From positions 1 through 49,599 of IMG/VR virus record IMGVR_UViG_3300050821_007602: DNA of 49,599 nt. The stretch is one strand, 5' to 3'. This document shows positions 641 through 36,332 of this stretch, piece by piece. The position numbers and the translations under genes were made by a program. The notes under the pieces are model-generated. The model did not search any database, was not told the origin of the DNA, and saw only the letters and a program-made list of their open reading frames with translations. Position 1 is the first letter of the stretch, and each line of letters opens with the position of its first letter. Source of the stretch: a virus.

Positions 641-1853
641 GATATCTTCCTATCTCTGGTTCAATCAACGTTTCCCAACGATCATGTCTCAACTTCGGAT
701 CAGTATCTTCATCTCCCCACAACTTATTCTTACTCAGATGAAGGAACCGAAGATTATCATATCCGGCTTCATTCACTTTTCCAACACCAAGAATCCAGTC
801 CGCCTCAGCCTGTTTGCTTGTCTTCGCGTTAGCCACGTTTGCCATGGACAACCAGCGAACTCCCTCACCAGACCCATCCGCCTGGCAGACCCCGATGACC
901 GGACAATATGTCTTGGCAAGTTCACGAGCCCAAATGTATATGGATCCGAGTCGCAGATCCTCTCGATCATTGTCAAATCCTTTGAGCTTATCGATCTGAT
1001 CGAAAACAATGAGGCTCGGCTGGATTTTCTTACAGATGGCCTCAACTTGTTTAAAGTGAATTGACGCACTGTCCTTGAGCTTAATGTTGTCCTTCGTCGC
1101 CTGAAGATATTTCTCACGATTCTCTTCCAGATTACTCAGAAGTTGGGTGTTATCCATTCCAAGAGCAGACTGGTAACACCGAAGCATTACTTCCGTTCCG
1201 ACCTGTTCGTTGTTAAACCAGAGTACAGGATTCGTAGCTTGCGCAGCCATGAATGTAACTTCCGAAGCCAGTAACGTGGTTTTCCCTGTTTCCGGCCGTG
1301 CAAATATAAACCCAAAATTGCCCTGTCTAAGCGACCCAAGACGTTTATTGAGAGATTCAAGACGCCATCGCAAGCCTTCCACAGCGCGACTTGTATTAAC
1401 GATCTCCACAAGATCACTGCTAACGAAATCATTATCCTCGTCTTCACATAGTTGCTCCGGTGACTTGAGTTGTTCTACCAGTTGTTGATAGTCTTCTTCC
1501 TTACCCCGACCCTCCGCTAACTCGTAAGCGGATACAGATAGTTCCCGTAGAAGTCGACTACGCTTGAACGTCTCAATAAGTTTTTCAGTCGAGAAATCAT
1601 TTGCATCTACCTGTTTGAGAGCGTCGAAGACGCCTGAGTAGAAATCTACCTTACTACGATTACTGGAGAAATACAGATTAGATAAGTCATCGACGGTCAG
1701 ATCACCGTCGGATTCTGTGGTAGTAAAGTACCCGTCGATGGTACGTACTACAGGATGTAGTTCCTTGGAGAAGTCGGATACATCCAGGTTATCTCTGATC
1801 TTATTATAATTCTCTTTACTCAGAAGATATTTTACAATACTTAACTCTATCAG
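630..1853 (-). CDS. DnaB-like replicative DNA helicase (non-canonical CUG start proposed)
   Basis: A RecA-fold hexameric helicase of about 407 residues that unwinds the fork. The Walker A motif is FARPETGKTTL, the Walker B region is SLIVFDQIDKL, and a later ICQADGSGEG segment corresponds to the H3-like glutamine motif, as in phage DnaB-type helicases. A GTG at 1409 gives only the ATPase half. The frame continues open for about 150 more codons upstream, to 1877, with a DnaB-like helical N-terminus (KYLLSKENYNKIRDNL...) and contains no ATG, GTG or TTG. The best start is CTG at 1853-1851, which overlaps the TGA of the HNH gene (CTGA, like the ATGA overlaps elsewhere) and sits five bases after GGAGG. 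Function is confident; the start codon is inferred. The primase is a separate gene at 4.7-5.5 kb. Confidence 0.85.
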   Translation of the reverse strand: MIELSIVKYLLSKENYNKIRDNLDVSDFSKELHPVVRTIDGYFTTTESDGDLTVDDLSNLYFSSNRSKVDFYSGVFDALKQVDANDFSTEKLIETFKRSRLLRELSVSAYELAEGRGKEEDYQQLVEQLKSPEQLCEDEDNDFVSSDLVEIVNTSRAVEGLRWRLESLNKRLGSLRQGNFGFIFARPETGKTTLLASEVTFMAAQATNPVLWFNNEQVGTEVMLRCYQSALGMDNTQLLSNLEENREKYLQATKDNIKLKDSASIHFKQVEAICKKIQPSLIVFDQIDKLKGFDNDREDLRLGSIYIWARELAKTYCPVIGVCQADGSGEGVRWLSMANVANAKTSKQAEADWILGVGKVNEAGYDNLRFLHLSKNKLWGDEDTDPKLRHDRWETLIEPEIGRYRDL

Positions 1854-2458
1854 ATATACCTCCCTCCAACTAGTTTCTTATCTTTGATAAAATCTTCAAT
1901 AGCTTCATGAACTTCTTTGCTACTGAAAGTTGCTCGTTGTTGTCTCAATAACGTAGGTCTATGGAATTCTTCTCGGATTCTTTGAGATTCCTTTTCATGT
2001 ACCTGATGAGCTTGGGTTACGGTTTCAAAGGGACCAAACATATGTTTAACACCATCATAAATAATCTGTACATTCCACAATTGAGATACTGGATCAAGAT
2101 GAACTCCCTTGGCACCAGATAGGGTTTGTTGTCTACGCCGCCGATTTGCTGCATTTTCTATATCCGTTGCTAACCTTAGATTCTTCCATCGATTATTCTT
2201 GGTGTTACCATCTTCATGATCCACCATCATATCTTCAGGTGGCCATTCTTCTGTCATGTAAAACCAGGCCAGACGATTCATACGAAGTACAATTGTTTTG
2301 TATGTAACAGTCTGATATGGAATGGTAGACAGATACCCTATAGGTTTACCAAGTCGTCGTCCATGTCCTCCGACTAACCAATAGAACTCACCAGTATCTG
2401 GTTCGTAATAAAGTTCTTCTAATAGTTCTTTATGATTTATATCTTTATATGTATTCAT
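1850..2458 (-). CDS. HNH homing endonuclease with AP2-like C-terminal domain
   Basis: A selfish site-specific nuclease of 202 residues. The HNH motif is MMVDHEDGNTKNNRWKNLRLAT, with the catalytic D-H pair and downstream N residues, preceded by RLAWFYMTEEWPPE, typical of phage HNH proteins. After it, GAKGVHLDPVSQLWNVQI...FGPFETVTQAHQVHE resembles the AP2/ERF-like DNA-binding domain often fused to HNH nucleases. The chosen ATG gives MNTYKDIN; an upstream in-frame start would add nine hydrophobic residues. It is the first gene after promoters A and C and directly abuts the helicase, a common target neighbourhood for freestanding homing genes. Confidence 0.9.
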   Translation of the reverse strand: MNTYKDINHKELLEELYYEPDTGEFYWLVGGHGRRLGKPIGYLSTIPYQTVTYKTIVLRMNRLAWFYMTEEWPPEDMMVDHEDGNTKNNRWKNLRLATDIENAANRRRRQQTLSGAKGVHLDPVSQLWNVQIIYDGVKHMFGPFETVTQAHQVHEKESQRIREEFHRPTLLRQQRATFSSKEVHEAIEDFIKDKKLVGGRYI

Positions 2459-2485
2459 AGGTAGGTCAAAACAGAAAGAAAACAA

Positions 2486-3653: not shown

Positions 3654-3856
3654 TATGGATGCTCGTAAATGCGTTTGATTGTATTCGCCGCGATTCGTTT
3701 CTCAATCCATTTCTCTGCCTCGGTAGATATTTGAAATTCCCTGTCAAACAGGTGCCGCTGATCCGCGTCCATGGCAGTATGCCAGAAGAACCAGCCTTTA
3801 TATTGTACCTTACAGGTACCATTCTGATACTTAATTATCCGATATCTGGTAGTCAT
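3653..3856 (-). CDS. hypothetical protein (67 aa)
   Basis: A 67-residue protein starting MTTRYRIIKYQNGTCKVQYK, with a GWFFWHT aromatic patch and a charged helical C-terminus. It starts four bases inside the serine-protease reading frame and ends in TAATG with the membrane peptide. The pattern looks like a small beta-rich phage protein; no function recognised. Confidence 0.6.
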   Translation of the reverse strand: MTTRYRIIKYQNGTCKVQYKGWFFWHTAMDADQRHLFDREFQISTEAEKWIEKRIAANTIKRIYEHP

Positions 3857-4125
3857 TTGAGATCCGCAAGTTCAGAAGCCGGGGTCAGGTAACCAATCAT
3901 AAACGGAATACCATTAATAACCTTCACTTGATCCATTTCAGCAAGCCCCATCACGCAACTGAGGGAATCATCTACTGCAGGGCCACCACTGTTCCCAGGA
4001 ACTACCGAGGTATCATACTGGATAAAATGATCAAATGGAACTGTCAGAATATCCTCTTGGGAGCGATCAGGGTAAGCAACATGGCCAATAGAAACAGTCT
4101 TGGATAGACCCAGGGGTCCTCCCAT
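3853..4125 (-). CDS. trypsin-like serine protease, C-terminal half after in-frame UGA (catalytic Ser)
   Basis: This segment carries the catalytic serine motif VVPGNSGGPAV and the strands that follow in trypsin-like (HtrA/S1) folds. It lacks His and Asp, which are in the upstream segment 4183-4545. The two are in the same frame: after ATC AAC the codons run TGA CCC GTT GGG CTG... and reach MGGPLGLSKTVS without any other stop, and that bridge (AVCSFKPYYGEVLDLMGGPLG) is just what the family has at this place. The ATG at 4125 may therefore not be the natural start. The full-length product by UGA readthrough would be about 230 residues. Confidence 0.7.
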   Translation of the reverse strand: MGGPLGLSKTVSIGHVAYPDRSQEDILTVPFDHFIQYDTSVVPGNSGGPAVDDSLSCVMGLAEMDQVKVINGIPFMIGYLTPASELADLK

Positions 4126-4182
4126 GAGATCAAGTACCTCTCCATAGTATGGTTTAAACGAGCATACAGCCAGCCCAACGGG

Positions 4183-4545
4183 TCAGTTGATCGTGGCATC
4201 ACTGGTGGTAAGGGTCATGATGTCCGGACCCGTTGTATCGTCTGCATCACCGAGCTTCTGAATGTGGAAAGGATGTTTCTTCCCATCCCCAAAATCTACA
4301 TTCAACACTGCTGTTGGATCCAATCCTTCGGCACAGTGTGCTGCCGTTACTACCTCATGAGTTCCTTTGAGTACCCAACCACTACAGTATCCTGAATCTG
4401 TTGTCACTGCTACTACATTCTCTAGTTTCTGTTCCAGAGTCGGTGGAGGAACATAGTGACTAGTCTCATAATAGATATGACCAAACAGAGACACCATAGC
4501 AATGAATGCCAAGGCACCAAGGGCGCTACCGATCTTCGTAAACAT
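4183..4545 (-). CDS. membrane-anchored trypsin-like serine protease, N-terminal half (catalytic His, Asp)
   Basis: It starts with a membrane anchor or signal (KIGSALGALAFIAMVSLFGHI), then YCSGWVLKG, the catalytic histidine in VVTAAHCAE, and the Asp region GPDIMTLT. Translation stops at TGA (4185-4183) in the context UGA-C, the leakiest stop context known in bacteria. The same frame then continues into the GNSGGP half. Either the gene is read through, or it is decayed, or the base is a sequencing error. The protease would act at the inner membrane or periplasmic face; its target is unknown. It lies between a small hypothetical gene (TAATG overlap) and a 67-residue protein. Confidence 0.75.
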   Translation of the reverse strand: MFTKIGSALGALAFIAMVSLFGHIYYETSHYVPPPTLEQKLENVVAVTTDSGYCSGWVLKGTHEVVTAAHCAEGLDPTAVLNVDFGDGKKHPFHIQKLGDADDTTGPDIMTLTTSDATIN

Positions 4546-4736
4546 TATTTATCACCTTTAAGAATTTCTTCTAAAGCCACATCATCATAAATTGTGTTGA
4601 TCAACTTATTTGCTGCACGAATAGCGGGTTTCATCAACTGCTCTGCAGTATATACGTTACCCGGATTACTAAGCGTACTTCCAATAATACCTGCTGTATA
4701 ACAAAGGAGCCGTTCACGCTCATTACTTAATTTCAT
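4545..4736 (-). CDS. hypothetical protein (63 aa)
   Basis: A 63-residue, mostly helical protein (MKLSNERERLLCYTAGIIGS...VALEEILKGDK). Not recognised. It overlaps the primase stop by one base and its own stop overlaps the protease ATG, so it is firmly within the operon. Confidence 0.6.
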   Translation of the reverse strand: MKLSNERERLLCYTAGIIGSTLSNPGNVYTAEQLMKPAIRAANKLINTIYDDVALEEILKGDK

Positions 4737-5524
4737 TACAGTTTCAAAGCCTTTTGAATTTGATCAAGTGCATGGTCCTTCGGATCATCTAATGTAAATA
4801 TTGCTCGGCTATGTACCCCCAACATACCCAGTTGACGTGCCATCTTCTGTGCTTCCGGAAACTTATCATGGTCCAACCACACAAAGATATTCTTGTATAG
4901 CTGGCGGATACGACTTAGCTTTTTGAGCGGCATCGCTGCACTAAAGCACGGGATTCCATCAATGCCTGCGTGGCTAACGCAGATTCCGCTGATGCAGTCT
5001 TCAACAATACAAGCCGTGTTTGTTGACGTGCGACTATAATAAGCTGCAATAACGTCCGCTGGCGTTCCTCCAGTAAAGAAGCGATTGTCATGGGTGGTAC
5101 CGGCTCGGAAATTACGGGCTTGCCACAACACCAGGTCCTTACCTTCTCCATAAAATCGGAAGATGAGTTGTTCACGAGATTTACTCCAACCAACATGGTG
5201 ACGGATCAGATCGGGAACCGCCAGACCGTACTTACCTACCCATTCCAGCACTACCTCAGGATATCCTCCAGACTCAGTGTCATCAGGACAGGATCGTAGT
5301 AGACTACTGCTCCCGCCACCAGCTCGAGGGCAGACGGCCTCTGATTGCGACTGTCCAGATAATTCTGATAGTCTCTTGACAAATCCGGATTCTCCCGGTT
5401 CATATGCTCCACATCCAAAACAGAATGCAGAACCTCCCTCGTACCGGGCCAGATTATCCTTTGATCCGCATACCGGACAGGGCTCATGCTTGAGAAATCG
5501 TGAGCTTTGTGCATAGCCATACAT
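4736..5524 (-). CDS. DNA primase (zinc finger plus Toprim domain)
   Basis: A 262-residue primase that makes RNA primers for lagging-strand synthesis. The N-terminal zinc ribbon is CPVCGSKDNLARY...FCFGC (residues about 16-39), similar to the T7 gp4 primase zinc domain. The Toprim core is seen as ACIVEDCISGICVSHAG (the metal-binding Glu of VED) and IFVWLDHDKFPEAQ (the DxD pair). There is no helicase domain, so primase and helicase are separate polypeptides here, unlike T7. The ATG at 5524 follows the zinc-ribbon gene by two bases. Confidence 0.9.
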   Translation of the reverse strand: MYGYAQSSRFLKHEPCPVCGSKDNLARYEGGSAFCFGCGAYEPGESGFVKRLSELSGQSQSEAVCPRAGGGSSSLLRSCPDDTESGGYPEVVLEWVGKYGLAVPDLIRHHVGWSKSREQLIFRFYGEGKDLVLWQARNFRAGTTHDNRFFTGGTPADVIAAYYSRTSTNTACIVEDCISGICVSHAGIDGIPCFSAAMPLKKLSRIRQLYKNIFVWLDHDKFPEAQKMARQLGMLGVHSRAIFTLDDPKDHALDQIQKALKL

Positions 5525-6508: not shown

Positions 6509-6696
6509 TTCAAATCCCTCAAAAAGATTTCAATCTTCTCCAGTGTATCTGCATCGTCTCTAGAAAGTTTGGAGAACGCAGACGTTGGATGTAGAATCTC
6601 CCATCTAGCTCTATGTATGATTACCAAGAGATCGTCCAAGTCTTGCTTGGTCTCTAGAGTAATCGTCATCGGAGAAAATTGTTTTTGGATCTTCAT
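6505..6696 (-). CDS. hypothetical protein (63 aa)
   Basis: A 63-residue helical protein (MKIQKQFSPMTITLETKQDL...KIEIFLRDLK). Its start overlaps the ATP-grasp stop and its stop overlaps the GcvH-like start as ATGA, tying the amidoligase island and the GcvH-like gene into one translationally coupled string. Not recognised. Confidence 0.6.
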   Translation of the reverse strand: MKIQKQFSPMTITLETKQDLDDLLVIIHRARWEILHPTSAFSKLSRDDADTLEKIEIFLRDLK

Positions 6697-7478
6697 TTTA
6701 GATGCCTAACAAACGCTTGTGCGTAGTTTCCCACGGTACTGCCCTCAAGTCCTGGCGCGGTGTTGACTTCCAGACAGTAACACTCGTTCCGTTTTTCATT
6801 CCAAATGATGTCAACTGCACCAAAGTCGAGGTTGAGTTGAGCCACCACTCGTTGAGCCATTTGTCGCATCCCTTCAGGCTCGGTGATGTCTTCACGACAA
6901 TAGACCCATCCGGTTTGATGATTACGTACCTGAAAGTCCGCCTTAAAATCTTCTGGCAGATCCTTTCGTTTTCGCTTTTCCTGAACATCGATTACTTCTC
7001 CAAAGGCGACGTGGATCCGGAACTCTTTTTGCTTCTTGATGTACTGCACATACAACGGTGCCCGGACCAGTTTATCTTCGGTATCAGCAAGCACAATACC
7101 GGCACCAGAATGACCAGAAAGTACGGTCCGACACACCACAGTAATCTTTTCAGCCAACCAGCTAGTTGCAACAGCTCGGTCGGTAGTATAAACGGGTATA
7201 CGAATTCCATCCACATCCTTCAAGGCGTTAAAAGTACTCAGCTTATTACTGGCCACAGCTACAGCATCGAAATTGTTGATAGTCCGCTGCGGATGTCCAT
7301 TCGCCACTGTATGCCAATGGCTGTTACCCCAGTTAATCACAATAGTCCACGGATGATGAGTGAATGTGGGATTCGGTCGATCAATGAACAGTCTTCGGAT
7401 TCTGTAGCCGCAGAGTTCGCTCATTGATAGAGCCAGATTCCTTGCTGACTGAGAGCCGATCTTGTACGGCAGCAGCAC
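6693..7478 (-). CDS. ATP-grasp ligase of the phage amidoligase island
   Basis: A 261-residue ATP-grasp enzyme, which would couple a carboxylate, via acyl-phosphate, to an amine or thiol. Visible motifs: the N-terminal LLPYKIGSQSARNLALSM and TIVINWGNSHW; ATP-binding strands in YIKKQKEFRIHVAFGEVIDVQEKRKR; and the metal-binding core NLDFGAVDIIWNE...CYCLEVNTAPGLEGST, where D, E and N chelate magnesium as in RimK and D-Ala-D-Ala ligase. A GTG at 7478 after AAGGCGG gives the conserved N-terminus and makes the gene overlap the amidotransferase by 98 bases in another frame. Starting at the internal ATG (7424) would remove conserved residues. Confidence 0.82.
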   Translation of the reverse strand: MLLPYKIGSQSARNLALSMSELCGYRIRRLFIDRPNPTFTHHPWTIVINWGNSHWHTVANGHPQRTINNFDAVAVASNKLSTFNALKDVDGIRIPVYTTDRAVATSWLAEKITVVCRTVLSGHSGAGIVLADTEDKLVRAPLYVQYIKKQKEFRIHVAFGEVIDVQEKRKRKDLPEDFKADFQVRNHQTGWVYCREDITEPEGMRQMAQRVVAQLNLDFGAVDIIWNEKRNECYCLEVNTAPGLEGSTVGNYAQAFVRHLK

Positions 7479-8988
7479 TAGAGGCCGCCTTGGTGCGGGC
7501 TGCTTCAATTGCTTTCTTGGTGTTGGTGTACGATGCAAGGTACTTGCCACGGTAGTCCTCCCGTTCAATCTTCTTGGCGATACAGTCAGGGCACAACATT
7601 GTCAGTACATTAACTGGCTTTTCTTTCTTCGGCATGATGACATGCTTCTCAACGAGAGTTGTAAATACTTTCTCCCAAGCCTCTACCTTACGTTGACATT
7701 CCATACAGCATCCATGATTCATGGCATAGTCCCACAACATAACCGGGACTTCCTTGGAATGTACCTGTGTAAATGTAGCCTTCTTGGTATCCTTTACGTG
7801 GATGGTCCATCCTCCATTAACTGTATGGGTATGATGTTGTACCGTACCAATACACATTGTTTCAAACCACTGAGGCAATTCATTCCCAGATACATCATGA
7901 GGAAGAAAGCCCTTGACATCCAGACGTTCTTTTCCGGGGGTCATAACCAACCCATTGAAAGAGAATCGTCCATTGGCTGTCTTCGATGCTGCATGAATCT
8001 TGATCAGCATTGTCTCATTACGAGGGAATGCCTCATTGTACGCATGGATGGATGCAGTCCGTGCTTCAGCCTGATCCTCATCACTAGAAGGCGAGGTGTC
8101 TTTTGCGAGCGTTAGCGCGCAGGGCTTCGAAGGCGTCGGGGTCGAGTGGGCTTGTTTTGCGGGAGCCATCTCCGTCCCTTTCGGAAAAAGCTCACAGTCC
8201 TTCCGTGCTTGTGCCCTCATACCCGTACTATATCGTTGCCAAGCCAGTAGCTCGGCATCATCGTCGAACTCCCCCGATAGGGTCACATCCTCCTTATTAA
8301 AGGAGCCATCCGCGTTGAATACAAAGATCTCACCCGGTTCAATCGGGATTGACCGCTTGATCTCAATGTGAGCGCGCTGTGCCGGGAACGCAGCAATCCA
8401 CGCCTCAGAAGTGAGGAACATGAAGTTATCACTCTCCAGAATACAGAGAGGACGTTCATCATTCCGGGTAGCGTACAACTTCTCAGTATTGGTATCATAC
8501 CAGATCAGTGCAAATGCCCCATTGATCTTGGAGATTACTCTCTTGTAATCACCGTGATCTTCCAATTCACTTTCTTCTGCCAACGCGTGGGCAATAGCGT
8601 GGCTATCCACTTTGGTGCTCACGTCGGTCAGGTTCTTCTGATCCTTCAATGTACCGTTGTGAACCAGAATAATATTCTTTTCCACAAAGGGATGGGCGTT
8701 GTCTGTGTTGACTTCACCACGGGTCGCCGCACGGTTGTGCCCAACAATAAACTTACCCCGATTGGTAACACTAGACTTGAATTCTCCCCACTCCGTCGAT
8801 CGGAATAGATTGTAGGGATGTGAGCCATGCTTGATAGCTCGAACATCACCGTTACGGAAACGGGTAAATACTCCCGTCGAATCCTTCCCCCGGATGGAAT
8901 CAATCAGCAACATGGTTTCGAATACCTCCACGTCACCATAGTTGAATCCTTGGGGCTTACGAGCGATCATTCCCAAAAGTCCGCACAT
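7381..8988 (-). CDS. class II glutamine amidotransferase (Ntn-type) with C-terminal Cys-rich domain
   Basis: A 535-residue protein that starts MCGLLGMIA, the Cys2 nucleophile of Ntn amidotransferases exposed after Met removal. Further motifs are IRGKDSTGVF, VGHNRAATRGEV and ILVHNGTL (oxyanion and glutamine binding), then TRNDERPLCI, covering residues 1-235 as in GlmS and asparagine synthetase. A Ser/Thr/Pro-rich linker (about 290-310) leads to a second domain with HHTHTVNGGW and cysteine pairs CCMEC and LCPDC, likely zinc-binding. No synthase domain of a known pathway is attached, so it probably delivers ammonia, or a glutamyl group, to the neighbouring ligases. It is preceded by the amidoligase gene at a spacing of three bases. 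Confidence 0.88.
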   Translation of the reverse strand: MCGLLGMIARKPQGFNYGDVEVFETMLLIDSIRGKDSTGVFTRFRNGDVRAIKHGSHPYNLFRSTEWGEFKSSVTNRGKFIVGHNRAATRGEVNTDNAHPFVEKNIILVHNGTLKDQKNLTDVSTKVDSHAIAHALAEESELEDHGDYKRVISKINGAFALIWYDTNTEKLYATRNDERPLCILESDNFMFLTSEAWIAAFPAQRAHIEIKRSIPIEPGEIFVFNADGSFNKEDVTLSGEFDDDAELLAWQRYSTGMRAQARKDCELFPKGTEMAPAKQAHSTPTPSKPCALTLAKDTSPSSDEDQAEARTASIHAYNEAFPRNETMLIKIHAASKTANGRFSFNGLVMTPGKERLDVKGFLPHDVSGNELPQWFETMCIGTVQHHTHTVNGGWTIHVKDTKKATFTQVHSKEVPVMLWDYAMNHGCCMECQRKVEAWEKVFTTLVEKHVIMPKKEKPVNVLTMLCPDCIAKKIEREDYRGKYLASYTNTKKAIEAARTKAASSAAAVQDRLSVSKESGSINERTLRLQNPKTVH

Positions 8989-8991
8989 CAG

Positions 8992-9888
8992 TTATGCTCC
9001 GATAGTTTTAAAGTAAGGCGACTCTTTCGAGACACTTTTGATCAAGGTTATTAACTTGTTACGGTCGATAAACGACCTCTTGACTACACCACTCGAACGA
9101 CGGATATCTTCAAATGATTCAAACTTCAAACGGATATCATCGTTCCCAAAGATATCGTGTAGCAATTCCCTCCAATTCGTAAAGGCATTACACTCGATAG
9201 CCAACCGACGGATAGAGGGAGTCCCCACCTTCAATACATAGTCGATCAACTTGTTGATAATCCGAATCCAGATCACCACCTTATTGTGATTGAAGGTTCC
9301 ATGCATGTGACGGAATTCAATAGTGCCGAATTCCCCCAGCGGAATGATATTCAATCCCGCATACTTGGACCAAGTTTCTACAACGGCACCCAGATTCTCC
9401 CGACCCATACCAGTAGTCAGCATGGTATCCATCAAAGGTACACAGTAGATATTCTTGATCCGTCCACGACCCGTATACTTATAGAACAACGGTTCAAGGA
9501 TGGTATACAACATCAAGATGTCAGTTACCTGTGTGCCCGTCATCCCCTGACAATTCACATGTACGTGGATGGACGTACGTGGAGAGAAACAACAAGATTC
9601 AGCCAGACTATTCCCCAGCAAATCCTGCAATGCATTGGGGGCGTGCTTGGCCTCGATAGGATGGGTTATCCATTCCACACCAGCGTTGCGCAAACTACCA
9701 TCTGCCTTGTTCATCCACACCTGTTGTGGATTGTGCTTATATCCGGCATTCTCCACTTCCACTTCAATACCGATGGCCCGATCACAGTCGATAACCTCTG
9801 GACCAGGCTGCATCGTGGCATAGAAGGGACCAGCATCCAGTATCGTCGGAGGACGTACCCCGAAGATATCTCCTACAGTTTTAGCCAT
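8992..9888 (-). CDS. amidoligase (COOH-NH2 ligase family, PF12224-like)
   Basis: A 298-residue member of the glutamine-synthetase-like amidoligase family. Motifs: AIGIEVEVENAG (metal-binding Glu residues on the first strand), KADGSLRNAGVEWITHPI (the DGSL...E..T signature), RTSIHVHVNCQ (the HVHV metal or phosphate site) and GTIEFRHMHGT (ExRxxxG). These enzymes activate a carboxyl group with ATP and condense it with an amine. Family-level prediction comes from published comparative genomics of amidoligases; no substrate is known. It overlaps the upstream 208-residue gene by eight bases. Confidence 0.87.
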   Translation of the reverse strand: MAKTVGDIFGVRPPTILDAGPFYATMQPGPEVIDCDRAIGIEVEVENAGYKHNPQQVWMNKADGSLRNAGVEWITHPIEAKHAPNALQDLLGNSLAESCCFSPRTSIHVHVNCQGMTGTQVTDILMLYTILEPLFYKYTGRGRIKNIYCVPLMDTMLTTGMGRENLGAVVETWSKYAGLNIIPLGEFGTIEFRHMHGTFNHNKVVIWIRIINKLIDYVLKVGTPSIRRLAIECNAFTNWRELLHDIFGNDDIRLKFESFEDIRRSSGVVKRSFIDRNKLITLIKSVSKESPYFKTIGA

Positions 9889-10507
9889 GAATATCCTCCA
9901 GCAAGAATTGTACAGTCGGACGATAATCTTCTTCCATCAACACCGTGAGTTTCCCCTTCGAGTCCACTCGTGCAATCGGATGAACCCAATGCCATAGTAC
10001 ATAATCCGGATTCTCAAACAACGTTTGAGTCAAGGTGAAGTTATCCCGTAGTGCAACACCACGAAATCCCCCTCCCTTCAACATCTTCAATGCATCCTTG
10101 ACAGAATATGTTTCGTGCTCAAAGGCATCACGGATTTCTGCGTGATTCCACCGGGACCGATTACCCACCACATTTCGGGTAACATTAAACAGAACACTGT
10201 TGTCCGGACAAATTCCCCTCCGATATTGTCGTTGAGGACGGCGATAGAACACCATCGCGTCATTACCGTGCTGGAATACCCCGACCGGAGGATACTTGAA
10301 TCGGAGTTGATGCCCGTCCGATCCAAAATTAATCTGGAATTTACCCAGAGTATCACTGGATAGATGCATGGTGGCAATCTTCGATCCACCGGTCTCTTCT
10401 ACCAGATCTACCTTGACCAGTTCTTCCTCTCGATCTGCGATATCCAGCCAGACAAACGTACCTTGCCAACGACGGCCAAAGTCCTGGATCACTTCCGAGT
10501 TAGTCAC
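9881..10507 (-). CDS. hypothetical protein (208 aa) within the amidoligase island
   Basis: A 208-residue protein I cannot assign. Features: beta-rich N-terminal half (GTFVWLDIADREEELVKVDLVEE), a basic FYRRPQRQYRRG stretch, then YSVKDALKMLKGGGFRGVALRDNFTLTQ and an aromatic DYVLWHWVHPIARV segment. The GTG start overlaps the upstream ligase stop (GTGA). Because it is sandwiched between the two amidoligases with coupled translation, it is a candidate substrate-binding or accessory component. Confidence 0.7.
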   Translation of the reverse strand: MTNSEVIQDFGRRWQGTFVWLDIADREEELVKVDLVEETGGSKIATMHLSSDTLGKFQINFGSDGHQLRFKYPPVGVFQHGNDAMVFYRRPQRQYRRGICPDNSVLFNVTRNVVGNRSRWNHAEIRDAFEHETYSVKDALKMLKGGGFRGVALRDNFTLTQTLFENPDYVLWHWVHPIARVDSKGKLTVLMEEDYRPTVQFLLEDIHG

Positions 10508-11283
10508 AGTCCAATCTCCTGCTTCAGTTGAGCGAGCAACTTCAGATCGCTGTTGTTGATACAGGCTTGGATCATCTCACCTTGTTCATCCGTGAATGTC
10601 CGACCAGATGCTACGAATTCCAGAGCTTTTTCGGTCTGATCCCAGACCCACTGAATCCGTTCATCCGATTCTATCCACCGATTGGACGCGGTACGATACT
10701 CCACCCCGTAACTCTTCTTACGGAATGCTCCGGCCTTACCATACAACTCACGACGACCAGCATCGTTGTCAAACTCCAGCATCAGACAGCCAACAAAGGC
10801 GTCCATTGCCTTGACAACAGCCAGCATGTCCATCTCATCATGGTCAAACTGAATGTGGATATGGCCACCACAGGAACGGAGATTCTTGTTCGCTGCTTGG
10901 GGAGGGGGGTTTTGATTACCGTTATTCCACGCATTGTAATCCGGCTCACAGCCGAAAGTCTTAGCAGCACGAGTCTGCAACTGATCATCATCGAACACGG
11001 CACTGGGCTTGATCACCATTTCCAAACCCAACTCAGCAGCCCGAGCCTTAATCCAATCCTTGTTCAGATTGATGTTCTTGATGAAATCCGCCGCACTTCT
11101 GCAAGGAGGGGTGTTGAACTCAATCGTAACGTTGTCTTCCTGCACAGCGTTACCTTCATCGTCAATAGGACGAGGTTGTTCTTTCGAACCCCCTACCAGA
11201 CCAACACTGCTGATGAACTTGTTGTTCTTCGGATCGAAGAGAAACGTTTCAGGATCACAGCCAAGGCGTCGAATTTGTTGCAT
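10504..11283 (-). CDS. phiEco32-type COOH-NH2 ligase (amidoligase type 2, PF14395-like)
   Basis: A 259-residue second amidoligase of a different subfamily. It opens with RRLGCDPETFLFD (the D-x-E metal site), then FISSVGLVGGSKEQP, and NVTIEFNTPPC; the central SCGGHIHIQFD gives the H-x-H site, and YGVEYRTASNRW gives the ExRxxSN motif. This is the family first named from phage phiEco32. Two different amidoligases in one operon imply two successive amide bonds or two substrates. It starts at ATG seven bases after the C26 gene stop, with GAGG as ribosome site. Confidence 0.87.
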   Translation of the reverse strand: MQQIRRLGCDPETFLFDPKNNKFISSVGLVGGSKEQPRPIDDEGNAVQEDNVTIEFNTPPCRSAADFIKNINLNKDWIKARAAELGLEMVIKPSAVFDDDQLQTRAAKTFGCEPDYNAWNNGNQNPPPQAANKNLRSCGGHIHIQFDHDEMDMLAVVKAMDAFVGCLMLEFDNDAGRRELYGKAGAFRKKSYGVEYRTASNRWIESDERIQWVWDQTEKALEFVASGRTFTDEQGEMIQACINNSDLKLLAQLKQEIGL

Positions 11284-11290
11284 GTTAACC

Positions 11291-12034
11291 TCACTTATTC
11301 AGGATATATTGATCAACTTTACGCAGACAATACTGTACAAACGGACTTTCTTCCGGATTACCCACAAACTCCGGGTGACCTTGGATCGCGAGACCCTTGA
11401 TATCCGGGAACCACACAATTTCCGGTTCAGGGGTATCCGTCTTGTGCATCTCCATATCTTCAGCATCGCCCTCCGTGACATATGTGTTACTCCGCTTCGG
11501 CCACGCTTGTGCCAACAATACGTGAGACACATCAAACGGATACATCATCTGGTGGTGTACCGACGTGGTATTGATCAGGATATCTTCATCCAGACACTTC
11601 ATCCCGTGTGTACCACTGTGACTGTTCACATGCTGGATAAGACGACCACCAGCCAAAGCACAGAGCAACTGAGCCCCTCGACACACACCAATAAGAGGAA
11701 TATTCCGCTCCATAGCAGCAAAACATGCTTCAGCTTCCACCTGATCCCGTCGTGATAGGCTTGTACGAGCACCAGTATACTTACTGGGAAGCTCACCATA
11801 GAGAGAAGGAGAAATATCCTCGCCACCCCAAATAACGAGGGCATCAATGTCGGCTCCTTTTGCAATCTCCGTGGGAGTTACCAGTCGCCCCTTCTGGTAA
11901 CGTTGATCAAAGGGATCAAGAGTACCGGTACCCATTCCCACATGACCGAGAGTCAACACCTTTGGTTCTTGTCCCAACGTTAGTACTTCGCTTTCAACTG
12001 CCTTAACGATATCTGTCAATTTACTTACTCCCAT
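11291..12034 (-). CDS. class I glutamine amidotransferase / gamma-glutamyl hydrolase (peptidase C26-like)
   Basis: A 247-residue triad amidotransferase-fold protein. The nucleophile elbow is IPLIGVCRGAQLLCALAGG (Cys), and the catalytic His is in LAIQGHPEFVG followed by Glu; LVIWGGEDISPSLYG is the N-terminal G-G-x-D-x-x-P motif of gamma-glutamyl-gamma-aminobutyrate hydrolases such as PuuD. It should hydrolyse a gamma-glutamyl amide, in step with or opposed to the amidoligases, as PuuD opposes PuuA in putrescine metabolism. Its ATG lies inside the end of the upstream gene (14-base overlap). Confidence 0.87.
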   Translation of the reverse strand: MGVSKLTDIVKAVESEVLTLGQEPKVLTLGHVGMGTGTLDPFDQRYQKGRLVTPTEIAKGADIDALVIWGGEDISPSLYGELPSKYTGARTSLSRRDQVEAEACFAAMERNIPLIGVCRGAQLLCALAGGRLIQHVNSHSGTHGMKCLDEDILINTTSVHHQMMYPFDVSHVLLAQAWPKRSNTYVTEGDAEDMEMHKTDTPEPEIVWFPDIKGLAIQGHPEFVGNPEESPFVQYCLRKVDQYILNK

Positions 12035-29115: not shown

Positions 29116-29796
29116 ATGACTACAGCCGTCTCTCTCGTTACAGGTGTATCTGGTGCAGGAGTCGGATTTCAACCCCCAGGTTCAAATTCTAATAATACTC
29201 CAGCGACGACTGCTTTTGTTAATAACCAGATTGCCTATTTTCATGCTACCCTCCCGCTTTCGGGTGTTACAGGTGGTGTTTATAACCAGGCTTCTCTAGG
29301 TAGTGGATGTACCTTTGCAATCCTGTCTTCTGGTGGGGTGATCACGGGAATTGCCACTATTGTCTCTGGTGGGGCTAATTACGTTGTTGGGGATATGTTG
29401 GTTGCCCAATCGGGTAATTATGATGCGGTGGTTCGTGTTACCTCAGTTAATAGTGGTTCTGTCCTGACTCTAGCGGTTGTATATGGAGGTACAGGATACA
29501 CCAATGGACTTCAAGCTACAGCTAATCAGATTCCTCCGGGTTCTCGTTTTGTTCCGATCTTTGGGGCCTTGACGAGCAATATGACGATCATTATAGCTAA
29601 CGGACCGTCTTTGACATTTAGTCGTTCCCCGATCTTTGCGAATAATACAAGTGGTGCTTTTACCGTTACGGTATTACTTAGTAATGGTGCTGGTGGAACT
29701 GTTGGTACTGGTGTCGTGTTGACACAGGGTTCAAACAATTCAACTGCCCAATTGGTAGTTACCGATGGTCAATCTGATGTCTGGAAAGTAGCATGA
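29116..29796 (+). CDS. putative tail fibre protein (226 aa)
   Basis: A Gly/Ser/Thr/Val-rich protein with an N-terminal NNTPATTAFVNNQIAYFHAT repeat unit shared with the fibre at 29975, followed by a GGAN/GGTGYT beta-region (VSGGANYVVGDMLVAQSGNY, VYGGTGYTNGLQATAN). Probably part of the short fibres; ATGA overlap with the next gene. Confidence 0.6.
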   Translation: MTTAVSLVTGVSGAGVGFQPPGSNSNNTPATTAFVNNQIAYFHATLPLSGVTGGVYNQASLGSGCTFAILSSGGVITGIATIVSGGANYVVGDMLVAQSGNYDAVVRVTSVNSGSVLTLAVVYGGTGYTNGLQATANQIPPGSRFVPIFGALTSNMTIIIANGPSLTFSRSPIFANNTSGAFTVTVLLSNGAGGTVGTGVVLTQGSNNSTAQLVVTDGQSDVWKVA

Positions 29797-29966
29797 CCTC
29801 TAACGTTACTATTGATCCGAGTGTTACAGATGGTCCTTCAGTGGTCGATGGTCCAGGAGTGTCTGAATATATTTCTACAACTGCTGGCGCTATGCAAGGA
29901 GATTTACTTCTGATGACGACAGCAATTCTTCTTCTAATGACTGGTGGTAGTCTTCTTCTTGTGTAA
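29793..29966 (+). CDS. hypothetical small protein (57 aa)
   Basis: Frame missed by length filters: MTSNVTIDPSVTDGPSVVDG to LLLMTGGSLLLV. ATGA overlap with the upstream stop. The hydrophobic end LLLMTTAILLLMTGGSLLLV could be membrane-inserted or a beta-repeat; a similar GGNWLLMTGG end occurs in the protein at 30944. Confidence 0.55.
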   Translation: MTSNVTIDPSVTDGPSVVDGPGVSEYISTTAGAMQGDLLLMTTAILLLMTGGSLLLV

Positions 29967-29974
29967 GGTATGAT

Positions 29975-30940
29975 ATGGCAGCGAATCAAAATGTAACACA
30001 ACTTACACAGCAAACGGGTACGGCTGCTCCAACTTCCTTATTCTATGCTGTGACAGGTGGGACCACTGATACTGGCCTACCTCTTTCTGTTCTTGTAAAC
30101 AGTCTGGGATTGACGGGTATCCCGACCGCTCCGACGGCTACAAATGGAACCAATACTACTCAGATTGCAACGACTGCTTATGTCGTTACATATGCCGCAC
30201 CTCTGGCTAGTCCTGTGTTTACAGGTACTCCGTCTTTGCCTACTGGTACTATAGCTGTAACACAGACAGCGGGTAATAATTCAACAGCAGTCGCTACGAC
30301 ATCTTTTGTAGCCACATCTTTTGCTCCCCTAGCTTCTCCTACCTTCACAGGAATTCCGGTGGGTCCGACTGCTGCTACAGGTACAAGTACTACTCAACTA
30401 GCAACAACTGCTTTTGTAGCTAATACCTTTGCTGCTCCTCCTTCATTAGGAGCAACAACTCCTAACGCAGTGCATGCGACTACGATTGGGGCATCTGGTC
30501 TTATTACACCAACAAGTACTATTGGTATTGTTGGTACGATTGCAGCCGACAACACCCAAGCCGGGAGTATTGGTGAATATATTACGGCTACATCAAGTGC
30601 TGTGTCTCTTACTTCCGGTTCAACTTCTAATATTGTCTCCATCAGTTTGACAGCAGGGGATTGGGATGTTTCGGGAAGTTTTTTATACAGTGCTGCTGCA
30701 GGTACGACAACGACTTTTGTATCAGGTGGAGTTAGCACGACAAGTGTAACTTTCCCTAGTATACCGCTGTATATTTATCTTGACAATACCTTTCCGACTG
30801 CGGCATTTTGTGGACAAACCGTGCCTACTCAACGGATTAATGTAAGTTCTACAACTACAGTATATCTGGTAGGTTCGGCTACTTTTGCAGTAAGTACAGC
30901 TACGATGATTGGATATATTCGAGCACGTCGCACAAGGTAA
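29975..30940 (+). CDS. tail fibre protein with ASPxFTGxP...TTAFV repeats (321 aa)
   Basis: Three degenerate units near residues 47-152: IPTAPTATNGTNTTQIATTA, APLASPVFTGTPSLPTGTIA...ATTSFV, and APLASPTFTGIPVGPTAATG...ATTAFV. This ASPTFTG..PTA..GT.TTQIATTAFV pattern is a common repeat of phage tail fibres and shaft regions. The C-terminal half (SITLTSGDWDVSGSF-like strands) resembles a receptor-binding beta-sandwich. Would bind the host surface. Confidence 0.8.
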   Translation: MAANQNVTQLTQQTGTAAPTSLFYAVTGGTTDTGLPLSVLVNSLGLTGIPTAPTATNGTNTTQIATTAYVVTYAAPLASPVFTGTPSLPTGTIAVTQTAGNNSTAVATTSFVATSFAPLASPTFTGIPVGPTAATGTSTTQLATTAFVANTFAAPPSLGATTPNAVHATTIGASGLITPTSTIGIVGTIAADNTQAGSIGEYITATSSAVSLTSGSTSNIVSISLTAGDWDVSGSFLYSAAAGTTTTFVSGGVSTTSVTFPSIPLYIYLDNTFPTAAFCGQTVPTQRINVSSTTTVYLVGSATFAVSTATMIGYIRARRTR

Positions 30941-30943
30941 ACT

Positions 30944-31384
30944 ATGCCACGTAATTACTATCAGGCTGGAGAATGGAATATCCGGTGTATGATTTGTGAT
31001 CGAAAGATCAAATCCGGATCGATTATGAAGCGCTGGGATGGCCTCTTAGTTTGTCCAGATGATTATGAAAATCGACATCCTATGGATTTTTTGAGGGCTC
31101 GGCAGGAACGTATTAATGTTCCATTCGCATATCCCTCGTCTTTTGATACATTTGATGTCCCAAACTATCCACCATATCCTTATTGTACGCAGCAAGGATC
31201 CAGTAGTCTTCCTACATGGGCCATAGCGGGATGTATGCGGCCTAGTCTCGGTTTTCCCAATGGATTACCGGTTACACCAGTCGAGATTCCTGATGAACCC
31301 ACTTACGTTCAATTAGGATTGATGTCTGGTGGAAATTGGCTACTGATGACTGGTGGTAATTTTACTACTGTAACTTTAGACTAA
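30944..31384 (+). CDS. conserved phage protein with zinc-ribbon-like start (146 aa)
   Basis: NYYQAGEWNIRCMICDRKIK then MKRWDGLLVCPDDYENRHPM; two CxxC-like pairs and the WDGLxVC..D.E.RHP.DF pattern are known from uncharacterised proteins near podophage tail genes. C-terminus ends in LMSGGNWLLMTGGNFTTVTL. Function unknown. Confidence 0.7.
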   Translation: MPRNYYQAGEWNIRCMICDRKIKSGSIMKRWDGLLVCPDDYENRHPMDFLRARQERINVPFAYPSSFDTFDVPNYPPYPYCTQQGSSSLPTWAIAGCMRPSLGFPNGLPVTPVEIPDEPTYVQLGLMSGGNWLLMTGGNFTTVTLD

Positions 31385-31391
31385 TAATAAT

Positions 31392-31592
31392 ATGATTGAA
31401 CTACATGAACGGCTCGCAGCCCTGGAGGAGCGAGTCGCCATCAATGAAACCGTTAACGATAAAATCCTGAAACATGTAGAGTCAATTGATTCTCATCTAA
31501 ATAGATATAAAGGTTTCATTGGGGCAATCTGGTTTGCGATCTCCTGCGTTGGAGTCTTTTTCAGCGCTATTAAATTTTTCCATAAAGGATAA
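31392..31592 (+). CDS. small coiled-coil membrane protein (66 aa), holin-like
   Basis: MIELHERLAALEERVAINET is an amphipathic coiled coil, followed by one transmembrane helix (FIGAIWFAISCVGVFFSAIK) and a basic end. This layout, directly before the holin, matches haemolysin-XhlA-like lysis accessory proteins. Confidence 0.65.
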   Translation: MIELHERLAALEERVAINETVNDKILKHVESIDSHLNRYKGFIGAIWFAISCVGVFFSAIKFFHKG

Positions 31593-31597
31593 TTATT

Positions 31598-32023
31598 ATG
31601 GGCGTGTTCGATATGGTCGCTGCTCCGATCCTGGATATTGTCAATAAACTTATTCCTGATCCTGCAGCGAAAGCTCAGATGCAACTTGAAGTTGCCCAAC
31701 TAGCTCAACAAACAGAATTCAAAGAACTTGATAACCAGTTAGCTATAACTGCCCAACAAACAGATACTAATAAAGTAGAAGCTGCAAGTACTAGTCTCTT
31801 TGTAGCGGGATGGCGACCATTTATTGGTTGGATCTGTGGGGGTACACTGGGATATACATATATTGGATCAAGTCTTATTGATGTTATTGCTACAGCATTA
31901 GGGCATCCATTAAACTTACCTAAACCTGATATGAGCGAGATGATGCCCATTCTGTTAGGGATGCTTGGTCTTGGTGGAATGCGTACCTATGAGAAAGTTA
32001 ACGGTATTAACGCGGGACAATAA
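31598..32023 (+). CDS. holin (3-TM holin family-like)
   Basis: A 141-residue protein starting MGVFDMVAAPILDIVNKLIP, with a helical N-terminal part (AAKAQMQLEVAQLAQQTEFK), then membrane segments around FVAGWRPFIGWICGGTLGYTY and ALGHPLNL...MMPILLGMLGLGGMRTYEK. The W-R-P-F-I-G-W motif is a hallmark of the three-TM holin family. It would set the time of lysis together with the lysozyme at 43949. Confidence 0.85.
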   Translation: MGVFDMVAAPILDIVNKLIPDPAAKAQMQLEVAQLAQQTEFKELDNQLAITAQQTDTNKVEAASTSLFVAGWRPFIGWICGGTLGYTYIGSSLIDVIATALGHPLNLPKPDMSEMMPILLGMLGLGGMRTYEKVNGINAGQ

Positions 32024-32025
32024 AT

Positions 32026-33606
32026 ATGAGTAATACAAATGTTACTTTTGTAGATTATGTTACACCCGTGACAGCGGCTTGGCTAAATAATGTCAATGCA
32101 GTTGTCAATAGTTCTGCTGCCGTGCCGTCGATTGCTCAATTGCGATTAACGAGTTCCACCAATGCTACATTTGCCATTGTCAATGGTTATACAACTGTTG
32201 GAGATGGTGGTGGTGGTGTTTATGCATTTAATGCTGCTGATGTTACTAGTGCCGATAATGGAGGCACTATTATTGTAGGTAATGATGGTGGGCGTTGGTA
32301 TCTACAACATAATAATGCAGTTTCAGTAAAACAATTTGGGGCGACGGGCAATGGTTCAACAGATGATACCAGTACGATTCAAAATGCCATCAATGTAGCG
32401 CAACTCACAGGAGCAGAACTTTATTTTCCCCCAGGAACTTATCAATATACTACTCTATCAATAACTGGATCTATCAAGATTTCTGGTGCTGGTCGAAATG
32501 CAACATTTTTTCATCAAAATAGCACGACGAATGTCGGGATTGTTGTTAATACCCCCTCTCCTGTTATTTTTGAAGGAATCTTTTTTTATCCGATCGGTAC
32601 TCCAACAGCCGGGGCAGCTATTTCATTAACTGCCTCGACAAGCAATACGGAAAGTGTTTTTCGAGATTGTTCTTTTGCTGGTAATTATATCGGGATTGAA
32701 ACAATTGCAGCAGCACAATGGGTGGTTGATAGTTGCTATTTTTCTCAATATATTGCAACGGGGATTTTAGTTCAAAATACGACGACTGCCGATAGTGGTG
32801 ATAGTGATGTTGTCGATTGTCTTTTTTCCTCGTCCGGGAATTCTGCTCAGGGTATTTTACAGTATTCTAGTGGTGGTCTAAAAATTTCCAACACCAAATT
32901 TATTGGTGGTGGTTATGGGTATCTTCTGCAACTTGCCGTTGGTGCTGCAACCTCTGATCTCCTATTCTCAAATTGTAGTTTGGAAAACCATACAGTAGCA
33001 GCAATTGATATTTCTAGACAAGGATCTAGTGGAACCTTTGCTAATATTGTAGTTAATGGTTGTCAATTTGCGCCGGCATCTGGTGGAATTCCCATGTCTT
33101 TTGGAGATTTTACAGCGGGTTGGTTATCTGGTGTTGTTGTTAATGGTTGTAATATTACTATTACGAATGCCACCGCAATTTTCATTAATGATGTAGCGGT
33201 ATTCAATGTTACCGGTAATAATTTCCTTGGTGTTGGTGCTTCTCAAAACGGAATTACAATTGCGGCTGGTGCGTCCAATGGTACGATTGGACCAAATACT
33301 TATAATAACTTAGGTAATCCAATTAATAATAGTTCGGTCTCGACTGCTATTGTTCCACGAACTGTTACCGGAACAGTTAATATTTCGTGTACTACTGGTG
33401 AAGGTTCTATTTTTGTCGGAACACAAGTCGTAACATTACCAGGTGGGGTGTTCCAAAGTGCTCCAGTAGCCACCGGTTCAATTACAGCGGGTAATGGTAT
33501 TAGTGTAGGATATTCAACATCCTCTCCTTCTGCTGTAACACTCTTTGCTACAGCCGCTGTTAGCGGAACTGTGACAGTTAGTTATGTAATTTCTGCACCT
33601 TATTAA
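32026..33606 (+). CDS. tailspike/tail fibre with pectate-lyase-like beta-helix (526 aa)
   Basis: The N-terminal part (TNVTFVDYVTPVTAAWLNNV, TTVGDGGGGVYAFNAAD) is a typical phage tailspike leader, and VSVKQFGATGNGSTDDTSTI is the start of a pectate-lyase-like right-handed beta-helix (GATGxGxxDDTxxIQNAI). Many Asn/Ser/Gly turns follow. Likely depolymerises or binds surface polysaccharide. The gene is clearly more AT-rich than the capsid genes, which hints at separate acquisition. Located between holin and the head-completion genes. Confidence 0.85.
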   Translation: MSNTNVTFVDYVTPVTAAWLNNVNAVVNSSAAVPSIAQLRLTSSTNATFAIVNGYTTVGDGGGGVYAFNAADVTSADNGGTIIVGNDGGRWYLQHNNAVSVKQFGATGNGSTDDTSTIQNAINVAQLTGAELYFPPGTYQYTTLSITGSIKISGAGRNATFFHQNSTTNVGIVVNTPSPVIFEGIFFYPIGTPTAGAAISLTASTSNTESVFRDCSFAGNYIGIETIAAAQWVVDSCYFSQYIATGILVQNTTTADSGDSDVVDCLFSSSGNSAQGILQYSSGGLKISNTKFIGGGYGYLLQLAVGAATSDLLFSNCSLENHTVAAIDISRQGSSGTFANIVVNGCQFAPASGGIPMSFGDFTAGWLSGVVVNGCNITITNATAIFINDVAVFNVTGNNFLGVGASQNGITIAAGASNGTIGPNTYNNLGNPINNSSVSTAIVPRTVTGTVNISCTTGEGSIFVGTQVVTLPGGVFQSAPVATGSITAGNGISVGYSTSSPSAVTLFATAAVSGTVTVSYVISAPY

Positions 33607-33617
33607 TAGGAATTAAA

Positions 33618-34376
33618 ATGGCAGTTTCTGGAGATACCACTTGGACAATGACACAGGCATCTATTGTTAATGCCGCCTTTCGTAAAATCGGTATTGGTGT
33701 TGATGGAAGTACTGCCACACCTACCCAGATCATTAATGCGAATGAGGCATTAAATAATCTTGTCTTCTCTTTGTATGCAATGGGCATGCCTTTATGGGCG
33801 ATGTCAACAACTTCTTTTACTCCACAATTAGGGATTATAACATATCCTGTAGGTCTTACCTCTGGTACCCAGACGAATTTAATTATTCCCGCACCTCTTA
33901 AGATTACTCAAGGATGGAGTCGAGATAATATTAGTAATACCGATATTCCATTAAACATTTATACTCAGTATAATTATAATTTATTGAGTACAAAAATTAA
34001 TAAAGGATATCCAGTCCACTTGTGGTACCAACCCTTGAATCAAACTGGAGTCATCACTATCTGGCCCGCTCCAGATCAATACACAGCAACAAATCGTTCG
34101 ATCTGGTTTGTCTATCAACGACCTTTTGATCAGTTTGATGCTACAACGGATACTCCCGATTTTCCTCAGATCTGGTTGGAACCCTTGATTTATTCCTTAG
34201 CACATCGACTTTCTCCTGAATTTGGACTACCCTTGAGTGAACAAGATAAATTGAATGAAACTGCCAATGCTCTTATTCAAAAGGCTTTGTCTTTTGGTAC
34301 AGAAGAAGGTGGATTATTTATTCAACCTGATTGGGTAGTTATGGGGATGGGATCGGATAATCCAAATGGATATTAA
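33618..34376 (+). CDS. P22 gp4-like head-tail adaptor / DNA-stabilisation protein
   Basis: A 252-residue protein: TMTQASIVNAAFRKIGIGVD, then NEALNNLVFSLYAMGMPLWA and a W-x-P...F.YQRPFDQFD segment. This matches the tail accessory factor family (P22 gp4), which plugs below the portal after packaging. Its neighbour is the gp10-like protein, as in P22-like arrays. Confidence 0.8.
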   Translation: MAVSGDTTWTMTQASIVNAAFRKIGIGVDGSTATPTQIINANEALNNLVFSLYAMGMPLWAMSTTSFTPQLGIITYPVGLTSGTQTNLIIPAPLKITQGWSRDNISNTDIPLNIYTQYNYNLLSTKINKGYPVHLWYQPLNQTGVITIWPAPDQYTATNRSIWFVYQRPFDQFDATTDTPDFPQIWLEPLIYSLAHRLSPEFGLPLSEQDKLNETANALIQKALSFGTEEGGLFIQPDWVVMGMGSDNPNGY

Positions 34377-34387
34377 TTGGATATATC

Positions 34388-35824
34388 ATGGCCACTAATC
34401 CCTATTTTACACAGTATCATACACAGCGTTTTTCTTTTATTGGATCACCACAACAGCGAGATGGTACTTATGTTAAGGATCAACGTTTCCTTAATATGTA
34501 TCCAGAACTTATTAAAAGTCCAATCACGGATGGAAAAAAATATTATTTGAAAAAGCGGCCGGGACTAGCTGGAGGTATTCAACTTCCTGCAGGCGCTGCC
34601 CAAGGGATCTATTTTTGGAATGGTGTTTATTACACGGCAGTGGGTGGGATTTTATATCGTAATGGTACAAGTATTTTGAATCTATCACAAACATCAACCA
34701 GAGTTGGTTTTTGTGAATACAGAGATGATACTCAAGATTTGTTATTTGTGTGTGATGGAAATGAGGCATGGTTGATTACTACGAGTAATACGATTAATCA
34801 CATTACCGATCCAAATTTTCCAGCACCACATATCCCCACCCCAGTGTTTCTCGATGGGTATATCTTTATTCCTGCTGCTTCAACCCAGACGATTCACAAT
34901 AGCACACTTTTGACTCCTGCTACATGGCCAGTTGATGGTTTCATCGATGCTGAAATGTTTCCAGATAATATTGTCGGATTAGCGAAAGTTCAAAACTATA
35001 TTGCAGCAATTGGTGGACAATCTATTGAATGGTTTTATGATAACGCAAATGCAACGGGATCTCCTTTAAATCGAAACGCACCGGCTGTTTCTCAATTTGG
35101 ATGTCCAGCTCCAATGACCATTAATCAGACTGAGATGGAATTAATTCTCGTTGGTCAAACGGCCAATGGTGGTCGAACAGTATGGGTAGTTAATGGATTT
35201 CAACCTACTGAAATTGCGAATGAACCTGTAAGAGAAGCTCTTGATTTAGAAGGAACTATTTTAGCCAATGCTAATGGCATGACTATCCAATGTGCTGGTC
35301 ATAAATGGTATATTCTCAATCTCTTAAGTGCCCAGAGAACGTTTGTTTATGATTTTGAAGAACAGATGTGGCATGAATGGTCATCTGGGACAACTCAAAC
35401 AAATTTCCAATGGGCATTTAGTGCAGACAGTGGTAATGGTGAACCTACTTTCATTAATTATACCACTGGTTTAGTAGCTTCCATGACTCCCACTACGTAT
35501 ACTGATATTGGAGCTACTATTAATTGTGAAGTTATTACTTCTAAAATCGATTTTGATACCATTATGCGAAAACGATTCTTTCGGATGTCCTTAATCTGTG
35601 ATGGTCCAAATGGCGATAATAATGTTCCAATTACAGTAAATTGGTCAGATGATGATTATAATACGTGGGTGGGTAATTTTACTCTTAATATTAATTCAAG
35701 TTATCCCACAGTAACTCAAATGGGTTTTAGTAGACGAAGGGCATATCAATTCATTTATCAACAACCCTATCCACTTCGGATGGAATCATTTGAACTAGAT
35801 ATTATCCAAGAAGTAAGGAGATAA
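34388..35824 (+). CDS. P22 gp10-like packaged-DNA stabilisation protein
   Basis: A 478-residue protein: RDQRFLNMYPELIKSP-type start (KDQRFLNMYPELI), KKRPGLAGGIQLPAGAAQGI, FVCDGNEAWLITTSNTINHI and AQRTFVYDFEEQMWHEWSSG. These are typical of the gp10-like hub proteins with beta-propeller-like repeats. Works after gp4 in closing the head. Confidence 0.8.
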   Translation: MATNPYFTQYHTQRFSFIGSPQQRDGTYVKDQRFLNMYPELIKSPITDGKKYYLKKRPGLAGGIQLPAGAAQGIYFWNGVYYTAVGGILYRNGTSILNLSQTSTRVGFCEYRDDTQDLLFVCDGNEAWLITTSNTINHITDPNFPAPHIPTPVFLDGYIFIPAASTQTIHNSTLLTPATWPVDGFIDAEMFPDNIVGLAKVQNYIAAIGGQSIEWFYDNANATGSPLNRNAPAVSQFGCPAPMTINQTEMELILVGQTANGGRTVWVVNGFQPTEIANEPVREALDLEGTILANANGMTIQCAGHKWYILNLLSAQRTFVYDFEEQMWHEWSSGTTQTNFQWAFSADSGNGEPTFINYTTGLVASMTPTTYTDIGATINCEVITSKIDFDTIMRKRFFRMSLICDGPNGDNNVPITVNWSDDDYNTWVGNFTLNINSSYPTVTQMGFSRRRAYQFIYQQPYPLRMESFELDIIQEVRR

Positions 35825-35825
35825 G

Positions 35826-36332
35826 ATGGCTGCAGGATTACCACCACCACCACTCAATTCCCCCAATGGTAGTTATTATTGGTTGGAATGGTATACTAAT
35901 CTTACGAATATTCTTAATTCGAATGGACTTCCTTTTACTTCACTGAGTTTTACAGGTTCTGATATTTCTCTGATTCAGACTCGAAATCACAATGAATTAA
36001 CAAATATTCAAGGTGGTACAGCTACTGGAACAACTCCTGGTGCAGGGAATGCTTGGCATGTAACAGGTAAAGGTTATGTCTCCTCAAGTGGAACTGGAAC
36101 GGGTATGCCAACTGGATGGTCGATTTCAGAAACCAGTACAGGTGTTTATACTCTAGTAACTGGTTTATCAACAACCTTACCTAATATTGGAGCAATTGCG
36201 ACATCAAACACGTCTGGGGTAATAGTGGAGTGGATTGATTTATCGAATACTGGACAAGTGATATTCCACTTGGTAGCTATTAATACTACGACTCCAACAT
36301 CTGGAAATTTTACTTTCATTGTGAGTACTTGA
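35826..36332 (+). CDS. hypothetical virion protein (168 aa)
   Basis: MAAGLPPPPLNSPNGSYYWL then WYTNLTNILNSNGLPFTSLS, a Thr/Gly-rich beta region follows. Location between gp10-like and ejection genes suggests a minor tail protein. Not recognised. Confidence 0.6.
   Translation: MAAGLPPPPLNSPNGSYYWLEWYTNLTNILNSNGLPFTSLSFTGSDISLIQTRNHNELTNIQGGTATGTTPGAGNAWHVTGKGYVSSSGTGTGMPTGWSISETSTGVYTLVTGLSTTLPNIGAIATSNTSGVIVEWIDLSNTGQVIFHLVAINTTTPTSGNFTFIVST

Follow-up and report, generated by a model that had tools for sequence, protein, structure and literature searches.

The question raised by this locus is whether a UGA codon that interrupts a phage protease gene is kept as a regulatory device, is a recent mutation, or is a mistake in the record. 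In the window, i.e., the whole stretch of DNA analysed, a 49.6-kb phage record, translation yields a single frame of 231 codons on the minus strand (4545..3853), terminal stop included, that encodes a trypsin-like serine protease and contains one internal TGA, codon 121 (4185-4183). This TGA sits 3' of the His and Asp motifs of the catalytic triad and 5' of the Ser motif, and the translation runs in the order M...TAAHC...GPDIMTL...ATIN*PVG...GEVLDLMGGPLG...GNSGGP...ADLK*. The first half carries a hydrophobic N-terminus, CSGW...TAAHC and GPDIMTL; the second half, with GEVLDLMGGPLG and GNSGGP, continues in the same frame. The internal TGA is followed by CCC, which gives a UGA-C context, and the gene's own terminal stop (3855-3853) is UGA-C as well. 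The features of the gene are as follows, G001 being the nearer of two related phage records.

3853..4545, minus strand: trypsin-like serine protease gene, 230 codons and a stop, broken at codon 121 (translation, family match, intact homologues)
4183..4545, minus strand: first ORF, 120 aa, with hydrophobic N-terminal segment, TAAHC (His) and GPDIMTL (Asp) (ORF list, translation; localization putative)
4183..4185, minus strand: in-frame TGA, codon 121, TGG (Trp) in both relatives (translation and the relatives' codons)
3853..4182, minus strand: downstream half with GNSGGP (Ser), same frame, purifying selection, ending in TGA then C (translation; dN/dS 0.03 against G001)
3853..4125, minus strand: the second half's only ORF with an ATG, GTG or TTG start, 90 aa (ORF list)

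With an X in place of the internal stop, the read-through protein matches the Pfam families Trypsin_2 (PF13365; 7.8e-12, 46.6 bits, cut-off 27.6) and Trypsin (PF00089; 1.6e-7, 31.8 bits, cut-off 20.6), each match forming one stretch that spans the stop, whereas the halves alone match weakly and neither reaches the Pfam cut-off. A profile of three proteins, the window copy and its two homologues, retrieved solved structures of HtrA-type proteases (best E 4.7e-7), while a protein search of annotated phages returned only weak DegS/HtrA matches of 60-70 residues. An AlphaFold model built from three sequences only has a mean pLDDT of 40.5, too low to be used for judging a double beta-barrel fold. 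Weak PADLOC RT-Protease matches (4e-4) were taken as general trypsin similarity. The encoded protein is a trypsin/HtrA-like serine protease, probably membrane-anchored and extracytoplasmic, the localization being suggested by the hydrophobic N-terminus and the cysteine pair in CSG...TAAHC. It resembles the Trypsin_2/HtrA-type enzymes (PF13365; HtrA, DegS, DegP) in the His-Asp-Ser order, in GNSGGP and in similarity across the protease domain, and its putative N-terminal anchor recalls DegS. It differs from HtrA, DegS and DegP in the stop codon of the window copy and in the PDZ domain, which is absent from its 230 residues, only trypsin models being matched; the Cys pair flanking the His region is shared with trypsins, unlike HtrA-type proteases.

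The frame is not a product of chance, since this protein is also encoded, with no stop inside it, in two related phage records. A scan of viral contigs identified a 230-residue homologue with 97% amino-acid identity in IMGVR_UViG_3300045020_000038 (G001, 54 kb), and IMGVR_UViG_3300045020_000011 (G008) encodes a 231-residue homologue with 55% identity; neither has an internal stop, and the frame is 230 residues long in the window and G001 and 231 in G008. The catalytic motifs are all in frame in the three genes and lie in one polypeptide in both relatives, but not in the window copy, where the stop separates Ser from His and Asp. The preliminary description had read the locus as a trypsin-like protease, some 230 residues long, that an in-frame UGA-C interrupts between Asp and Ser, with GNSGGP in the same frame, and translation, Pfam and the intact homologues bear this out. 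Window, G001 and G008 share the gene order primase-like gene, small protein, protease.

4545..4736, minus strand: gene for a 63-aa protein directly upstream of the protease, with ATG overlap, conserved in the relatives (ORF list, comparison)
4736..5524, minus strand: DNA primase-like gene upstream, conserved in the relatives (gene match, comparison)

In the gene-long alignment, codon 121 is TGG (Trp) in both G001 and G008, and the residue belongs to a conserved T-x-N-W-P motif. Because both relatives carry TGG at this position, Trp is most simply the ancestral state and the TGA appears as one substitution private to the window record; the comparison draws on two relatives from one metagenome, the nearer at about 94-95% nucleotide identity. 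A conserved UGA, which would have spoken for the regulatory role first proposed for the codon, was thus not found in either.

The terminase gene yielded 80 relatives of the window phage. Fifty of the other related records were queried both with the intact protease and with PF13365, and the gene turned up in G008 only; many of these records are fragments, so that absence is weak evidence. Scanning viral contigs with an alignment of the three proteins returned the same two relatives and nothing further, the corresponding scan of bacterial genomes gave no homologue, and a nucleotide search of annotated phages gave no match; DNA pattern scans for more alleles, with narrow patterns that would miss distant ones, recovered G001 only. 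Within this phage group the protease is found in three records, the window, G001 and G008, and its absence from most related records searched marks it as a likely accessory gene. Judged by terminase, the window phage lies closest, among annotated phages, to an uncultured Caudoviricetes (48.8%) and to Alcaligenes phage vB_Af_QDWS535 (56.9% over 70% of the length), matches that do not fix the host.

Several other features of the window were noted. Directly 3' of the protease stop lies a segment of about 200 bp (3655-3855, minus strand) that is absent from G001 and contains a 67-aa orphan ORF without a homologue in G001, the G008 locus or the other loci compared; AATGA occurs at both of its edges, and the segment may have been gained or lost through recombination between short repeats. 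An HNH endonuclease gene (1850-2485, minus strand) has just 47% identity to its G001 counterpart, whereas the adjoining DnaB-like helicase gene (630-1409) has 98%, which suggests a mobile endonuclease site. In the region 29116-36332 (plus strand), synonymous divergence from G001 exceeds 1 in several genes, against values mostly of 0.05-0.35 outside it, a pattern that would suit recombinational exchange of the block. The first ~180 residues of a 1606-aa protein (39132-43952, plus strand) match 'internal virion protein with endolysin domain' and endolysin families. A cluster of amide-bond enzymes, identified by PHROG matches, occupies 6693-12034 on the minus strand.

6693-7568, minus strand: RimK-like ligase (PHROG match)
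7381-8988, minus strand: glutamine amidotransferase-like (PHROG match)
8992-9888, minus strand: amidoligase (PHROG match)
10504-11283, minus strand: COOH-NH2 ligase (PHROG match)
11291-12034, minus strand: second glutamine amidotransferase (PHROG match)

On balance, the accessory phage protease gene in the window probably carries a nonsense mutation that is isolated and arose recently. One substitution would have converted the conserved Trp-121 codon UGG into UGA, and translation would mostly halt after 120 residues; since this product lacks the catalytic Ser, the window copy should be mostly or wholly inactive. Background misreading of the UGA by tRNA-Trp, a process known from some bacteria, could restore Trp and leave a little full-length enzyme, and such leaky insertion at codon 121 is possible.

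The Trp in both relatives would also suit a phage or host that reads UGA as Trp. However, TGA ends 26 of the 60 counted genes, many of them ending in TGA in G001 too, while the counted genes use TGG for Trp 195 times; no second in-frame TGA was encountered, and the window is devoid of tRNA genes. With so many TGA-ending genes and a single in-frame case, a changed code is in practice refuted, and its probability is negligible. Selenocysteine at the UGA is unlikely as well, given the Trp in the relatives and a post-UGA stretch that folds no better than shuffled sequences.

Selection on the gene bears on the age of the stop. Over the whole protease gene, dS against G001 is 0.266 and dN 0.013 (dN/dS 0.05), with a dN/dS of 0.08 before the stop and 0.03 after it; the part after the stop has 24 synonymous and three non-synonymous differences (dS 0.386, dN 0.012). 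When G008 is used to polarize the differences, 12 synonymous changes map to the window branch; apart from the stop, no amino-acid change is resolved there. The site in alignment column 184 has no branch assignment, and in column 51 the window retains the outgroup's residue. Downstream of the stop the branch shows seven synonymous and zero resolved non-synonymous changes, an outcome that would have a probability of 5e-5 if evolution were neutral. If the gene has been unconstrained since the stop arose, the stop dates to about the last 8-12% of the window branch; the branch and dating figures come from simple counting with a single outgroup at 55% identity and are rough. Neither the gene as a whole nor its downstream half shows random decay. 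A recent origin agrees with the published finding that in-frame stops in bacterial genes are mostly short-lived, with polymorphism-scale persistence, and are over-represented in the mobilome category, which includes phages (PMC7918605). The present case is like those of Belinky et al. 2021 (PMC7918605) in that one nonsense substitution, apparently very recent, occurs in a gene under purifying selection; it differs in that their main set needs the stop in at least two species and here it is in one record.

A gene free of decay would be just as expected were the TGA a mistake of sequencing or assembly, or were readthrough keeping the gene useful. The first of these, a consensus, sequencing or assembly mistake for a true TGG, is a less likely explanation. 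In its favour, the stop is one isolated difference in a gene otherwise without sign of decay, and both relatives have TGG. Nothing speaks directly against it; the record does not look generally error-ridden, because no other premature stop was seen between the window and G001 in shared genes on the expected coding strand, in a list judged by eye with overlapping-frame ORFs set aside; a lone premature stop fits a single mutation and a single error equally. We infer that the base at codon 121 is real. Of the alternatives raised at the outset, decay and base error, a single recent mutation or a base error fits best, and general decay does not fit.

Useful readthrough would mean that selection keeps the UGA-C because a low, constant proportion of ribosomes puts in Trp there and so yields active protease. 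The conserved downstream half speaks for this idea, as does the context, inefficient termination at UGA followed by C being documented for bacteria (PMC5289835); the misreading of UGA is probably due to tRNA-Trp (PMC9481147), and Trp is the relatives' residue. In one reporter study, UGA readthrough ranged by species from 0.04% to 12% and was attributed to tRNA-Trp, with about 12% in E. coli (PMC9481147) and only 0.04-0.08% in Pseudomonas species (PMC9481147), the latter arguing against selected readthrough. The supposedly readthrough-prone context is genuine, but the +4 C opens a Pro codon present in the relatives (CCC in G001, CCG in G008) and, being part of this pre-existing codon, was not selected for readthrough. 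UGA-C also forms the gene's natural end and ends three of the 26 counted TGA-ending genes. Neither the RNA fold of the region nor that of the stretch immediately 3' of the UGA is more stable than those of shuffled sequences (z 0.69 and -0.31). Among the hallmarks of readthrough genes, only the conserved downstream frame is present, and a recent origin of the stop already accounts for it; in place of a conserved stop both relatives have a Trp codon, and neither a stop-specific stimulating context nor RNA structure was found. The locus resembles natural UGA readthrough by tRNA-Trp in its UGA-C context and in the residue that Trp would restore; it differs in that the stop is not conserved and its context is inherited from an intact gene. 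Selected readthrough is therefore improbable, and the further proposal that the phage lineage maintains the UGA as a low-yield switch setting the dose of a membrane-anchored protease is, if anything, slightly more so. The regulatory switch of the preliminary description is not supported, the evidence for it having been removed; a trace of leaky full-length enzyme is still compatible with the data.

A split protease, whose two halves would be translated independently, with a restart at ATG 4125 for the second, and would then assemble, is very unlikely. The stop does fall between the Asp-holding and the Ser-holding regions, and a GGAGAGG stretch lies 11 bases before ATG 4125. This purine stretch, however, encodes a Gly-Glu common to all three proteins, the restart product would be without the anchor and without 20 conserved residues after the stop, and the protease is a single chain in both relatives.

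The position of the stop, its private occurrence, the Trp in both relatives, the absence of decay and the absence of a code change are established by the analysis, and the best reading is that a recent nonsense allele or a base error fits better than a regulatory switch. A real switch, if true, would be an unusual way for a phage to control protein dose, but the evidence does not favour it. The locus illustrates how earlier sense codons can leave behind, as a side effect, a suggestive stop context, and how cheaply such cases can be decided from relatives that have a sense codon.
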